Shown here piece after piece: positions 971-30,223 of a stretch of 40,147 nt of DNA. Every line of letters begins with the position of its first letter. Position 1 is the stretch's first letter. The stretch is from a virus, in IMG/VR virus record IMGVR_UViG_3300021361_000009, positions 1 through 40,147 of that record, one strand, 5' to 3'. The notes beneath the pieces were generated by a model. The model ran no database searches and had not been told where the DNA came from. It saw nothing but the letters and a program-made list of their open reading frames with translations. A program made the position numbers and the translations under genes.

Positions 971-1699
971 TCAGAAAGTGAATGTAAGCGTTTTGAATAT
1001 CTGATTGAGATAAAGCTGGGAGGATATGATGGAGACTAGGGAAACGTTGCCCGCCGTATCGATTCTGTAGACTGTCTGGCCTTGCGAGCCGATTCCAGCG
1101 ACAGGATTATTGTATTGCTGGATGACAGTGAATAATACGGTTGTGGAGCTGCTACCGTCTGCCTTGACGGTATAGGACTGCGTTAAATATCCGTTGCTAG
1201 ATGCCCCAAATTGGCCGGTTGCGCCAGTGGTCACAGTGGCGGGGACTGTGAAGGCGGATATGTCGATTCCAATAGATGTCAGATAGGCGGGCGCATAGTT
1301 GGATGTGTCATAGTAGACGGTACTCAGTGATGAAAGAGGGGCCGTCGATCCGCCTTCATTGAGGGTGCCAGTGATGACTTCCGCAGCCCCAATTACTGGC
1401 CTGCCATCCGAACTTGTGGCTTTAGTTGTTGCGACGCCGACCGAGATCGTTCCGGTGCCGGTGATCGTCGTATTGGGCTGCGGACTGCTCGGTGTGCTGT
1501 TGTTGATCCAGCCGGTAATCGTAAAGCTGCCACTTAAGCCCAGCGTGGCGATATTTTTCATGGCGGTTTCTAACGGAACCGTTACGACTGCTGGTGGTGC
1601 CGCATTTTGTGCTGGCGGATCGCTTGCGCCGCCACCCCCACCACCACATGCTACCAACAAAGATGCCAAAACAAGAGTTGCAATCTTAAAGGTTTTCAT
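971..1699 (-). CDS. Secreted lipoprotein, probable lysogenic cargo gene
   Basis: This 242-residue protein has a type II signal peptide: MKTF, a hydrophobic core, then lipobox LVAC with the acylated Cys at about residue 18, followed by a poly-Gly spacer. The mature part is rich in Ser, Thr, Gly and Val, which fits a beta-rich surface or outer-membrane lipoprotein; I see no named domain. GGAGG precedes ATG 1699. It has its own terminator and lies between the leftward promoter and the repressor, so it could be expressed from the prophage and alter the host surface. Such isolated cargo genes are typical of lysogenic conversion. The function itself is unknown. Confidence 0.75.
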   Translation of the reverse strand: MKTFKIATLVLASLLVACGGGGGGASDPPAQNAAPPAVVTVPLETAMKNIATLGLSGSFTITGWINNSTPSSPQPNTTITGTGTISVGVATTKATSSDGRPVIGAAEVITGTLNEGGSTAPLSSLSTVYYDTSNYAPAYLTSIGIDISAFTVPATVTTGATGQFGASSNGYLTQSYTVKADGSSSTTVLFTVIQQYNNPVAGIGSQGQTVYRIDTAGNVSLVSIISSQLYLNQIFKTLTFTF

Positions 1700-2037
1700 C
1701 TCTCCTCCAGGTTAATGCTTCCCCATTGACGGATTGCGGCTACTCCAGCGCAGCTTCAATTACCTGCGTCTTGTAAAGGAGTGCCATGCACCAAAAATCT
1801 CGGGTGCTATATAGCAAAAAATAGAATAGACGCGACTTAGTGGCGTTTTTCTTCAATTTGGTGATCAATAAAAAACGATACTTTGCAAATGTAGATGCTT
1901 TTTTGTTAATAAAATTAATATTCGGAGGGCCGCATAAATCCAAAATCTTGGATATACTGTGTTTTCATCCAGTGCTTTTGTTCCCCGACGACTACGATGT
2001 CTGAACCACATGAGCGCCCATAAAATGGAGGGGGACA
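1700..2037. other. AT-rich intergenic region with LexA-like box
   Basis: Beyond the ribosome site of the lipoprotein gene (about 1703-1710) and the LexA-like site at 1955-1974, this stretch is AT-rich. Minus-strand ORFs of 61-67 codons cross it but have poor composition and no ribosome site, so I do not call them. A 10-bp palindrome GCTATATAGC lies near 1808. Confidence 0.5.
1953..1974 (+). promoter_or_regulatory. LexA-like SOS box overlapping a -10 element
   Basis: TACTGTGTTTTCATCCAGTG (1955-1974) matches the LexA consensus CTGT-N8-ACAG except for one base in the right half (CCAG instead of ACAG), with a T-rich centre. It overlaps a good -10 hexamer TATACT (1953-1958) pointing right; no clear -35 is visible. 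It lies 63 bases before the small gene at 2038. LexA control of that gene is an inference. Confidence 0.5.
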
Positions 2038-2211
2038 ATGACTCGGCCACAGGAAGCGCAGCTCCTACTTGACTTGTTTGAGCGCATTGAAAAACAATCT
2101 GACCGAGATTTCATCGTGCGCGTAGCGCAGCACTACGCCGCATTAAAAGTCCGATCCGAGCCATCACTTAGACTGGTTTTTAATCGCTCTGACAATACGG
2201 AAGCCCGGTAG
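2038..2211 (+). CDS. 57-aa protein, candidate SOS-controlled small regulator
   Basis: ATG 2038 has a strong GGAGGGGG ribosome site 4 bases upstream. The product starts MTRPQEAQLLLDLFERIEKQ and reads as a charged, largely helical protein ending NTEAR. I know no family for it. Its last 48 bases overlap, on the opposite strand, the final codons of the repressor gene (2164-2607), so the two are convergent. It follows a LexA-like box, and the repressor lacks a self-cleaving domain; an anti-repressor role like that of small SOS-induced anti-repressors in other phages would make sense but is inferred. The strong ribosome site is the best support that it is translated. Confidence 0.55.
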   Translation: MTRPQEAQLLLDLFERIEKQSDRDFIVRVAQHYAALKVRSEPSLRLVFNRSDNTEAR

Positions 2212-2607
2212 CTTTGGCACTATATTGGCGATTTCCATAATTCTCGCTCTGCCATCCAAGTCAGACCAGCGGTATAAATTGATTAATTTTGCGATTTCAT
2301 CGTAAGCCGCCTCTGCGACTGGATCATCGTTTCTCGGATCGCTAGGATGGCCGCTCGATTCCTCATCCCCCTTTCCGTATAGCAGCCATTCAGACGTCGT
2401 TCTAAGCACCTCGGCAACCTTTTTAATGCGGTTGCGATTTGGTGCCGTCTTGCCATTTTCCCATTGCTGAATAGTTTGCCAAGCAACGCCAACAGCACTG
2501 GCTAAAGCCTGCTGGCTTTCGTAGCTGCATTTAAGCCTGCGCCTCAACAGTCGGTGTCGAAATTCTTCCATGGGCGAACTATGCGCACAAGAAATTCTAG
2601 CGTCCAT
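2164..2607 (-). CDS. XRE-family phage repressor (CI-like)
   Basis: This 147-residue protein has an HTH_XRE domain at about residues 15-78 (SQQALASAVGVAWQTIQQWENG is the helix-turn-helix), followed by a helical C-terminal tail. It is the likely lysogeny repressor acting on the operators at 2622-2638 and 866-882. It has no S24/LexA peptidase domain and no catalytic Ser/Lys pair, so RecA-stimulated self-cleavage is not expected. ATG 2607 has no ribosome site, and an AT-rich -10-like stretch (about 2611-2617 on the minus strand) sits just upstream, so a leaderless mRNA like that of lambda cI is possible; ATG 2571 is the alternative start. It diverges from the Cro-like gene at 2653. Confidence 0.8.
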   Translation of the reverse strand: MDARISCAHSSPMEEFRHRLLRRRLKCSYESQQALASAVGVAWQTIQQWENGKTAPNRNRIKKVAEVLRTTSEWLLYGKGDEESSGHPSDPRNDDPVAEAAYDEIAKLINLYRWSDLDGRARIMEIANIVPKLPGFRIVRAIKNQSK

Positions 2608-2652: not shown

Positions 2653-3012
2653 ATGGACAAACCAAATTCAACCGAAGCACTAAACCGAGCAATTTCGCAA
2701 TTCCCAACCTTGCGGGCATTTGCCGAAGCCATGCACGTTCATTACCAGGTGGTGCAGCAGTGGCGACTGAATGGCGTCCCCGCCGAATATTGTCCTGAAG
2801 TTGAAAAATTGACCGGCGTGACGTGCGAGGAACTGAACGAAAAGGTTGATTGGGCGTATGTCCGCTCGACCTCGCCTCAAGCAGATCACCCACACCAAAA
2901 CCGCTCCCACCCCGACGAAGAAAAGATAAGGGAAACGGAAAAGCCCGGATTCCGACAAGACCCAAAGAAGCCGACCGCAAGCGGTGGCGATCACACCAAG
3001 GAGGCGGCATGA
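2653..3012 (+). CDS. Cro-like regulator (YdaS/Cro type)
   Basis: This 119-residue protein has an N-terminal helix-turn-helix at about residues 19-40 (FAEAMHVHYQVVQQWRLNGV), then the segment AEYCPEVEKLTGVTCEEL and WAYVR that typify YdaS/Cro-like regulators, in which the residues after the HTH pick the cognate site. The C-terminal 45 residues are polar and probably disordered. It diverges from the repressor and should antagonise it. No ribosome site precedes ATG 2653 and the promoter places the RNA start at about the ATG, so translation is probably leaderless. The stop overlaps the next gene (ATGA at 3009). Confidence 0.8.
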   Translation: MDKPNSTEALNRAISQFPTLRAFAEAMHVHYQVVQQWRLNGVPAEYCPEVEKLTGVTCEELNEKVDWAYVRSTSPQADHPHQNRSHPDEEKIRETEKPGFRQDPKKPTASGGDHTKEAA

Positions 3013-5393: not shown

Positions 5394-5899
5394 AGCCTAC
5401 GGACCCTCTAATTCGATTTTGGCGGCACGTCAAGAAAGAGCCTTCGGGTTGCTGGCAATGGGTTGGCGCAAAAAAGCCTACTGGTTACGGAAATTTCTAC
5501 ATGAACAGTAGATACATGGGCGCGCATTGCGCCTCTTACTTACTTTTCAGCGGGGAAATTCAGGAGGGAAAATTTGTATGCCATAAATGCGACAACCCTT
5601 CTTGCGTAAATCCTGAGCATTTATTTCTCGGATCTCCCAAAGAAAATATGCGAGACATGATGAGTAAGGGGCGTGCCATTGGAATTGCTCAAGGTGAGGA
5701 GGCACATCCAGAATCAAAGCTAACCGCAAAAAATGTTGTCGAAATAAGGCAATTGCGCGCAGGCGGCGAAACACTAAAGAACATTGGTGCTCGTTTTGGC
5801 ATTACCGAATCGAACGTCCATTACATCGTTACCGGTAAAACATGGTGTCATGTAGATCAGTTCTCGGCATCGCCCAGCGAAATTGCGAGGGCCGCATGA
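5390..5899 (+). CDS. HNH endonuclease, homing type (HNH_3)
   Basis: The 169-residue protein has an HNH_3 nuclease core: GAHCASYLLF (H46), VCHKCDNPSCVNPEHLFLG with the paired cysteines, N74 and H77, then the usual NMRDMMSKGR. The C-terminal 55 residues carry an HTH of the kind seen in homing endonucleases (SKLTAKNVVEIRQL..., ITESNVHYIVTGKTW). It likely nicks or cuts phage DNA and may be a mobile free-standing gene. It is more AT-rich than its neighbours, yet it overlaps both by ATGA, so it is fully knit into the operon. Confidence 0.85.
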   Translation: MKPTDPLIRFWRHVKKEPSGCWQWVGAKKPTGYGNFYMNSRYMGAHCASYLLFSGEIQEGKFVCHKCDNPSCVNPEHLFLGSPKENMRDMMSKGRAIGIAQGEEAHPESKLTAKNVVEIRQLRAGGETLKNIGARFGITESNVHYIVTGKTWCHVDQFSASPSEIARAA

Positions 5900-6138
5900 C
5901 ACGCCGCTCAACGACGAAGCTAACGTCAAAGCAATTGGCGGTGCTGAATTTCGTAAATCAGCATGTCCAAGCCGAGGGGTTTCCCCCGTCTCTAGTTGAG
6001 ATTTGCAATTTTTTCAAATGGACTTCGCAGAATAGCGCCGCTTGTCATTTGCGGCTTTTGAGGGAAAAAGGCTACATCACTATAGCGTACGGAATTTCCC
6101 GTGGCATTAAGATTTTGAAGATGCCGGAGGCTGCGTGA
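5896..6138 (+). CDS. LexA-type DNA-binding domain protein, no peptidase
   Basis: The 80-residue protein aligns with the N-terminal winged-helix domain of LexA: LTSKQLAVLNFVNQHVQAEG, then FPPSLVEICNFFKWTSQNSA, then LREKGYI. It ends there, so the self-cleaving peptidase and dimerisation domain is absent. The recognition helix keeps S and N, but the two glutamates that follow in E. coli LexA are replaced (A-C before H-L), so its site may differ from the SOS box. It may act as a constitutive phage-encoded competitor or regulator. Starts and stops overlap both neighbours. Confidence 0.75.
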   Translation: MTRRSTTKLTSKQLAVLNFVNQHVQAEGFPPSLVEICNFFKWTSQNSAACHLRLLREKGYITIAYGISRGIKILKMPEAA

Positions 6139-22602: not shown

Positions 22603-22639
22603 TCCCACTTGTCACTGTTTAATTTGCCAGCGAGGTTTT

Positions 22640-28705: not shown

Positions 28706-30223
28706 ATGACCAATCCGTTTTATACGGTTACCGGCAATCCTCTTGCGCAGACCAGGGGAACGTCAGCGGCCATACGCAGTGAATTTTCGCTGATTCAAGC
28801 GGCATTCGGACTGCTCCCAGTATCGGCGTATGCAGTGGATACCGGCACCGTGAATTCAATTGTGGTGTCGATCAATTCTGCCATCACGTCCTATACCGAT
28901 GGATTGGTGCTGATTGCCAAGATCGCCAACACAACGACCTCGACGACGCCGACCATCAACGCAAATGGACTTGGTGCGGTCACCATCACGCACGCCGATG
29001 GAACGGCCTTGAACCCTGGCGACTTGATCGCCGGGAAGGTTGCCGCATTCATCTACAACGCGACGACGGCTACCTGGCAATGCATGACGACGCTGTCGTG
29101 CGCGACTCAAGCTGTTTCGGACAATTCAACTAAACTGGCGAATACCGCATTTGTCCAACAACTCGCAGCTTTCTTCGCGGCCCAAGGGGCAGCGGGCCAG
29201 TTACCAAACCAAGCAGGGAATGGCGGTAAAAATTTAACCACAAATGGCACGACCTCTTCATGGGGTTTCTCGGCAACACCAGAACCGCAGGGAAGGTTGA
29301 CGCTAACCAGCAACACGCCAGTAATGCCTTCCGACATCACGGCAGCAACCAGCATTTACTATGCGCCTTATCGTGGCAACGGAATTCCGATTTATAACGG
29401 CACATACCTAAGTTCAAATTTGTTCAGCCAACTAACGTTGGCACTTGATAGTAACAGCGGACATACTGGCTATCAGCAATCCGGAAACCTCTACGACCTG
29501 TTCGTATTCCTAAACAGCGGAACACCGACACTTTGCACTGGCCCGGCTTGGTCAAGCACGACATCGCGCGGCACTGGTGCTGGAACCACGCAACTGCAAT
29601 TGTTGAATGGCGTATGGACCAATGCCGTTCAGATCACCGCCAAGATCGACGCAACCTCGACCACAGTAACAGTAGCAGCAAACCAGGCTACCTACGTCGG
29701 CACGATGTACGCGACTGCAAATGGGCAGACAGCCATGCAGTTCGCGCCGACCGCTGCAACGGGTGGGACTAACAACATGCTGGCCCTATACAACGCCTAC
29801 AACCGCGTGCGCGTCGACACATCATGCCAAGACAGCACGACCAGCTGGACCTACGCAACACCAACTTGGCGCTCGGCAGATAACAGCAACAGCAACAGAA
29901 TAAGTTTTGTCGATGGATTGCAGCAGTCCTTCGTAAATTGCTCATACACGGAAACTTGCACAGGATATTCGTCTGGCCCGCATATCGGTGTGAACTTGGA
30001 CAGCACGTCGGCAACGCCGAACTTCAGTGCAGCCATGAATAACACCGGCGCTGGTGCGCAATTCATGTCTATATCGACCGGCATGATGTCGTTCAACCCA
30101 CAGCTTGGGTTCCATTATTTGCAGGCCATGGAATATTCGAAAACGACCACATCAACGTTCTACGGAAAGAACTATGATGATAGCTCCCCAGCGATGTTCT
30201 TAACCGCTTCGTTGGAGATGTAA
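28706..30223 (+). CDS. Tail fibre protein
   Basis: The 505-residue protein starts with the virion-attachment motif MTNPFYTVTGNPLAQTRGTS common to podovirus fibres, then a Thr/Ala-rich shaft (INSAITSYTDGLVLIAKIAN), and a Ser/Thr/Asn-rich C-terminal receptor-binding part with SADNSNSNRISFVDG and paired cysteines. It ends in a variable region typical of host-range domains. The chaperone-like gene directly follows. Binding partner unknown. Confidence 0.75.
   Translation: MTNPFYTVTGNPLAQTRGTSAAIRSEFSLIQAAFGLLPVSAYAVDTGTVNSIVVSINSAITSYTDGLVLIAKIANTTTSTTPTINANGLGAVTITHADGTALNPGDLIAGKVAAFIYNATTATWQCMTTLSCATQAVSDNSTKLANTAFVQQLAAFFAAQGAAGQLPNQAGNGGKNLTTNGTTSSWGFSATPEPQGRLTLTSNTPVMPSDITAATSIYYAPYRGNGIPIYNGTYLSSNLFSQLTLALDSNSGHTGYQQSGNLYDLFVFLNSGTPTLCTGPAWSSTTSRGTGAGTTQLQLLNGVWTNAVQITAKIDATSTTVTVAANQATYVGTMYATANGQTAMQFAPTAATGGTNNMLALYNAYNRVRVDTSCQDSTTSWTYATPTWRSADNSNSNRISFVDGLQQSFVNCSYTETCTGYSSGPHIGVNLDSTSATPNFSAAMNNTGAGAQFMSISTGMMSFNPQLGFHYLQAMEYSKTTTSTFYGKNYDDSSPAMFLTASLEM

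Follow-up and report, generated by a model that had tools for sequence, protein, structure and literature searches.

We analyzed a 40,147-nucleotide (nt) stretch of viral DNA (IMG/VR virus record IMGVR_UViG_3300021361_000009, positions 1 to 40,147; hereafter the window) that carries a small open reading frame (ORF) of 57 amino acids (aa) running head-on into the gene of a helix-turn-helix (HTH) repressor. Our analysis makes it likely that this ORF encodes an antirepressor that the SOS response induces and whose partner is the C-terminal hairpin of the repressor, in the manner of SinI. The parts of this reading differ in strength: the ORF is with high probability a LexA-controlled protein gene, its product probably acts as an antirepressor of the adjacent repressor, and we lean toward an action through the repressor's C-terminal hairpin. 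Because an SOS box and the head-on arrangement are common to related viruses, the tiny protein most likely wakes the virus by disabling its repressor. The features that carry the argument are as follows.

1953–1958, plus strand: −10 element TATACT of the proposed SOS promoter, read from the sequence and overlapping the LexA box.
1955–1974, plus strand: LexA (SOS) box TACTGTGTTTTCATCCAGTG, of the form CTGT-N8-CCAG, recognized by matrix score and by the same relative place in relatives.
2027–2034, plus strand: Shine-Dalgarno element GGAGGGGG, read from the sequence.
2038–2211, plus strand: proposed 57-aa antirepressor, with a predicted two-helix hairpin (residues 4–20 and 23–36) and a P-x-LRLV C-terminal segment.
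2164–2211: convergent overlap of 48 nt between the 3′ ends of the antirepressor and repressor genes, read from the sequence.
2164–2607, minus strand: 147-aa HTH repressor without an S24 peptidase and with a C-terminal helical tail (PF01381, E = 2.5e-10; PHROG transcriptional repressor).

The positions that an initial annotation of this DNA had assigned to TATACT, the box, the ribosome site, the ATG, the end of the ORF and the overlap with the repressor were all correct when checked on the sequence. It had proposed a small LexA-controlled anti-repressor serving a repressor that lacks an S24 peptidase. A Pfam scan of the window repressor matched HTH families only, with no S24 peptidase, and the anti-repressor proposal is supported by a strong box, a conserved protein and its recurrence opposite S24-less repressors. 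The box, the coding gene, its family, the convergence, the SOS boxes of relatives and the resemblance to the repressor tail are computed results.

Scoring against LexA matrices, a check suggested by the initial annotation, marked the box as a strong candidate. With a 20-base-pair (bp) matrix made from 18 E. coli sites (Table 4, PMC3009722), the site at 1955–1974 scored 20.5 bits, a value within the span that true E. coli sites cover under leave-one-out scoring (recA 21.3, lexA 19.7 and uvrB 24.4 bits). Sites with such a score are expected by chance at 0.01 per window, and the box leads the runner-up LexA-like site in the window by 7.6 bits. A second matrix, made from four host sites, again ranked it first, at 16.3 bits, and the E. 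coli uvrB box, AACTGTTTTTTTATCCAGTA, has the same CTGT...CCAG form. The description of the box as one base off CTGT-N8-ACAG is true of the sequence but carries no significance: the window holds 7 sites with one mismatch to this consensus against 11 expected, which makes that test powerless. TATACT at 1953–1958 is a good −10 hexamer. A LexA box overlapping the −10 element is also the geometry of phage 186 p95, which drives Tum and where the −10 at 29044–29049 starts the annotated LexA site at 29044–29063, and of two related loci described below (L091 and L092). The runner-up site scored 12.9 bits; this sequence, CACTGTTTAATTTGCCAGCG at 22613–22632, is followed after 7 nt by a 295-aa ORF and is probably a chance match.

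The host genome that contains the window (2.95 megabases in 107 contigs, 87% complete) has 12 matches to TACTGTN8MCAG versus 3 for the reversed control. Strong SOS boxes lie ahead of host genes read by sequence as recA, uvrD, recG and a radical-SAM protein, indicating that the host employs the usual CTGT-N8-ACAG box.

The ORF starts with an ATG at 2038, 63 nt past the box, and stops at 2211. Its frame was by far the best by codon log-odds, a score reached by 8 of 2000 shuffles. Single-sequence searches of Pfam, PHROGs, phage and plasmid records, IMG/VR and GTDB contigs returned no match. Fold prediction from the single sequence gave helices at residues 4–20 and 23–36 with a predicted local distance difference test (pLDDT) score of 67; viral fold matches to this model were discarded as meaningless. 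A family came into view when 394 genomes from the host's taxonomic family were searched, weak matches (E values of 8e-4 to about 0.6) inspected and the profile rebuilt. The family was seen only through those weak matches and the rebuilt profile, and a profile of five members found more; searched against PDB, the small-protein profile gave no match better than E 0.2. Two small ORFs found in this way, L058 and L079 (re-fetched as L091 and L092), are convergent with HTH repressors, and two other family members, L052 and L054, have no repressor opposite. All told, a family member converges with an HTH repressor of 131–154 aa at 15 loci (the window, L062, L091, L092, L093, L095, L099, L103/L129, L105, L109 and L130–L134), which come from the host's taxonomic family or, for L129–L134, from IMG/VR contigs. 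The gene ends overlap by 3–99 nt in the relatives, with 3 nt in L105, and by 0 nt in L062. None of seven repressors scanned by Pfam has an S24 domain, and for those of L091 and L093 Pfam reports no HTH either.

The window ORF, convergent with an S24-less repressor, fits the family profile M..QQE..L..AF.....DR......A...A.....RP.LRLV. Judged by these profile matches, the 57-aa ORF is a member of a family that has not been described and is absent from Pfam and PHROGs. The earlier remark that no anti-repressor family is recognized thus holds for database searches, yet the profile search did find a family. Other weak matches (L002–L006, L053, L055–L057 and L060) looked like chance, and the small frame of L059 was rejected as a member, scoring just 10 bits with the profile despite two strong SOS boxes. 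Those two LexA boxes are adjacent (L059:1428–1472, 26.5 and 28.5 bits) and lie ahead of a gene in another genome of the host's taxonomic family. We found no description of a LexA-controlled small ORF convergent with a repressor in the open-access literature; subscription papers were outside the search.

In scoring boxes in the relatives we set a minimum of 16 bits and a maximum distance of 100 nt from the ATG on its upstream side; 14 loci had readable upstream DNA. A strong SOS box precedes the small ORF in nine of these 14 convergent loci: the window (20.5 bits), L092 (30.3), L091 and L095 (16.2 each), L103/L129 (20.9), L130, L131 and L133 (20.1 each) and L134 (22.5). The nine are partly dependent, since L091 has promoter DNA in common with L095 and a single subgroup takes in all of L129–L134. 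Across 181,767 positions of 35 loci (nine convergent loci plus 26 IMG/VR loci of repressor relatives), just five sites reached at least 15 bits, and all five sit at the small-ORF promoter. In L099 the place of the box is taken by a perfect 20-bp palindrome, CCCTTTGTTTAAACAAAGGG, at −27 to −8 of the ATG on the ORF strand, so the trigger can differ among loci; L093 has a palindrome, TACTATTTTTACGAATAGTA, at −103 to −84 of the ATG and no SOS box. These palindromes suggest that the box-less members L099 and L093 are under another regulator. Within the L129–L134 subgroup, the members of which share 67–100% identity with the query L103, hardly any change is seen in the box and leader, and the DNA farther upstream diverges. 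Omega, estimated from single-codon changes among five close relatives, is about 0.08 over codons 1–35, which encode the hairpin and lie outside the overlap, and 0.70 over the rest of the ORF, where the overlap falls. The hairpin core is thus under strong purifying selection as a protein in this one close subgroup.

Three further features place the ORF in the lysogeny control region.

2622–2643: operator copy between the repressor and the cro-like gene (OR-like, or right operator), an inverted repeat of 843–882 with 95% identity over 20 nt.
843–882: second operator region (OL-like, or left operator) with two half-copies, forming an inverted repeat with 2622–2643.
2653–3012, plus strand: divergent cro-like gene of the YdaS family (PF15943, E = 2.6e-13).

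The near-identical inverted copies at 2622–2643 and 843–882 are placed as the operators OL and OR would be. Because the SOS box and the 57-aa ORF fall between them, both lie inside the immunity region. The window repressor is divergent to the YdaS-family gene, the same layout as racR-ydaS in Rac; the YdaS family is the partner of RacR-type repressors.

We hypothesize that in the lysogen host LexA would sit on 1955–1974, over the −10 element, and silence the 57-aa gene, with the short repressor occupying both operators. DNA damage would remove LexA and the 57-aa protein would be made. Its two-helix hairpin, which would resemble the repressor's own C-terminal dimerization hairpin, would then pair with that hairpin and take the repressor off the DNA, allowing lytic growth, as SinI acts on SinR. 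The 57-aa antirepressor would in this way replace repressor self-cleavage. That LexA binds the box, that the gene is transcribed in the SOS response, and that its product binds the repressor, frees the DNA of it and induces the phage are the steps that we infer.

The proposed target is suggested by the repressor tail, which has predicted helices at 96–111 and 117–129 in a low-confidence fold. Profiles of the small proteins and of the tails align over 27 columns with a score of 21.2 (22.2 with more members), compared with a mean of 7.0 and a maximum of 13.1 for column-shuffled tails (200 trials), 7.1 for reversed tails and about 6 for the HTH parts. Across 14 loci, variation in the small-protein core tracks that part of the tail which the overlap does not cover (r 0.57, and 0.40 with p 0.009 once the set was thinned), but it does not track the HTH (r 0.17, and −0.11 in the thinned set). 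Natural swaps follow the same pattern. L129 and L130 have tails that are 69% and small proteins that are 72% alike under HTHs at background similarity (35%), whereas L095 and L130 are related in their HTHs (54%) and unlike in their tails and small proteins.

Several results weigh against the proposed mechanism. No −35 hexamer passes a promoter scan for the proposed SOS promoter, and five of the 14 evaluable loci (L062, L093, L099, L105 and L109) have no clear SOS box. A search of the 87%-complete assembly for host LexA came up empty: the sole match there to the LexA DNA-binding domain is an 80-aa phage protein encoded at 5896–6138, and lexA is therefore probably missing from the assembly. The predicted folds of the small protein and the tail agree in kind, both at low confidence (pLDDT 67). 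The hairpin motif, LL-x-LF...R..LL..A, is generic, its profile also matching unrelated proteins of 119–126 aa, so the resemblance to the tail may reflect a common fold type. For the window pair alone, the 57-aa protein and the repressor have no pairwise similarity. With near-duplicates removed, the core is weakly correlated with the whole tail (r 0.18, p 0.15), and the overlap forces some co-inheritance of the small ORF and the tail. As the overlap ties the two genes physically, we take their co-variation as support, not proof. The conserved 119–126-aa protein (L121, L122 and L125) stands in an unrelated context and has an N-terminal LL-LFRALPPEQQDTL--FA-FLAAR hairpin as in the antirepressor family.

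Some of these points would fit an antirepressor that binds the HTH or another surface of the repressor, its hairpin likeness being that of a common helical fold. The motif in unrelated proteins and the nil similarity of the window pair speak for this alternative, as does the A2B2 assembly that Gifsy antirepressors form with dimeric repressors (PMC3121763). We nevertheless regard it as unlikely, given that the profile similarity is limited to the tails and spares the HTH parts, that co-variation is with the tail and not the HTH, and that L129 and L130, with HTHs no more alike than background, still have tail and small ORF in common.

The small protein could instead be SOS-induced for another role, such as modulation of RecA or LexA or of host division, with its proximity to the repressor a matter of packing. 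DinI-like proteins do occur among SOS-regulated phage genes, and the five box-less convergent loci would sit easily with such a role. This is improbable, because the small gene moves together with its repressor. L091 and L095, from one genus, have DNA that is 95% identical from the SOS promoter through the fifth codon; the similarity then vanishes across the antirepressor, the repressor and most of cro, returning at cro's last codons, which puts the small gene inside an exchanged immunity cassette. The small protein also co-varies with the repressor tail and resembles it, and its gene is absent beside close S24-bearing relatives of the repressor. Over the HTH, the nearest relatives of the window repressor are 45–57% identical to it, and most of them have an S24 domain (four by a PF00717 test, the others judged by length and C-terminus). 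No SOS box and no family member was found in any of these repressor-relative loci (L020–L045), whereas L062, an S24-less relative, does have a family member.

The initial annotation had left open whether the peptide or an antisense RNA is the switch. An SOS-driven transcript that runs antisense into the repressor gene could lower the repressor by pairing or by polymerase collision: the SOS promoter aims at the repressor, no transcription terminator was found from 1700 to 2750, and the convergence recurs in 15 loci. Selection on the core outside the overlap (omega about 0.08), together with L052 and L054, which have no repressor opposite, argues for the peptide over the RNA, as do overlaps of 0 nt in L062 and 3 nt in L105. 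We thus favor the peptide and give the transcript as sole switch little credence. That a chance SOS-like box lies over a random ORF is rejected as very improbable, for although one mismatch to CTGT-N8-ACAG is common and the ORF matches no database family, the matrix score, the profile family, the box position and the selection all speak against it.

Beyond the antirepressor reading itself, we raise more tentatively a view of the locus as a two-gene cassette that might have replaced the S24 half of the repressor, consisting of a helical repressor tail and a LexA-controlled mimic of that tail encoded across from it on the opposite strand, in overlap. Such a cassette could move under unrelated HTHs, and the tail type and not the HTH would set which antirepressor matches which phage, with a possible antisense contribution from the convergent transcript on top of the protein's effect.

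The window encodes a terminase, a portal/adaptor, a helicase, NinB, NinG and an endolysin, and a putative tyrosine integrase, identified from its sequence, lies 4 kilobases past the window; from these genes we read the DNA as that of a temperate phage or a prophage. A 242-aa lipoprotein-like product with a signal peptide and CGGGGGG is encoded at 971–1699 (minus strand), in the part of the immunity region that separates the operators; this is a possible lysogenic-conversion gene. The 80-aa phage protein at 5896–6138 (plus strand) is a LexA DNA-binding domain without a peptidase (PF01726 match, PHROG 362). The recognition helix of E. coli LexA uses two glutamates; by eye, that of the phage protein (SQNSAACHL) is without them, so the protein may read another box. 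Short tandem repeats of TCGACCTGCGAC occupy positions 1–90 at the contig start, and contig C6 starts 58 nt earlier; a comparison of the contig ends found no common sequence.

Many prophage repressors are without a self-cleaving domain, and the route by which they sense DNA damage is known for few. Our analysis offers a predicted answer for a prophage group in the order of the window's host and a searchable signature: an SOS box, a hairpin protein of 50–67 aa and a convergent S24-less repressor. If the tail-mimic model is true, it places a SinI-like mechanism under LexA control, tail swaps should transfer sensitivity, and phages of one tail type should induce each other.

Known systems share parts of this design. 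In Gifsy phages, small LexA-controlled antirepressors remove short, non-cleaved repressors from DNA (PMC3121763). GfoA, GfhA and GftA of Gifsy, together with Rem of Qin and the DicA/RacR-type repressors, resemble the window system in pairing a small phage protein with a short non-cleavable repressor, and a RacR-YdaS-type gene pair alongside is common to both (PMC3121763, PMC10448788). Unlike the window gene, which lies between the operators and overlaps the repressor gene, the Gifsy antirepressor genes are outside the immunity region. Rem, an 83-aa protein identified through its homology to GfoA, scores −1.3 bits with the family profile, which is no match; RacR does not match either, and in DicA only an LELLELF hairpin matches, at 10 bits. 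Tum of coliphage 186 likewise combines a LexA box over the −10 element, a small antirepressor and a non-cleaved repressor, but it has 146 aa with a DinI-like half, its gene is away from the immunity region, and it scores 1.6 bits with the family profile, no match. AntC of phage N15, cited in PMC3121763, is an SOS-controlled antirepressor, as we propose for the window gene. SinI of Bacillus subtilis pairs with the two-helical hook of SinR, and this pairing dissociates the repressor (PMC3163267). SinI and the window protein both have 57 residues and form a helical hairpin (predicted for the window) that resembles the C-terminal part of an HTH repressor. The SinI Pfam model matched none of five family members at E up to 5, and the window gene, unlike that of SinI, is convergent, phage-borne and, we propose, LexA-controlled. 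In the transcription factor–small ORF (TF-smORF) modules of linear plasmid-phages, a small protein of the phage switches off the repressor with which it is paired, and no proteolysis is involved (PMC10432266); there a phage transcription factor turns the module on without recourse to SOS, whereas LexA is the proposed regulator here. By sequence, then, the window gene belongs to none of Tum, Rem and SinI. LexA-controlled antirepressors are already known from Tum, AntC and Gifsy; what is new here is the family, the convergent site within the immunity region and the proposed tail target.
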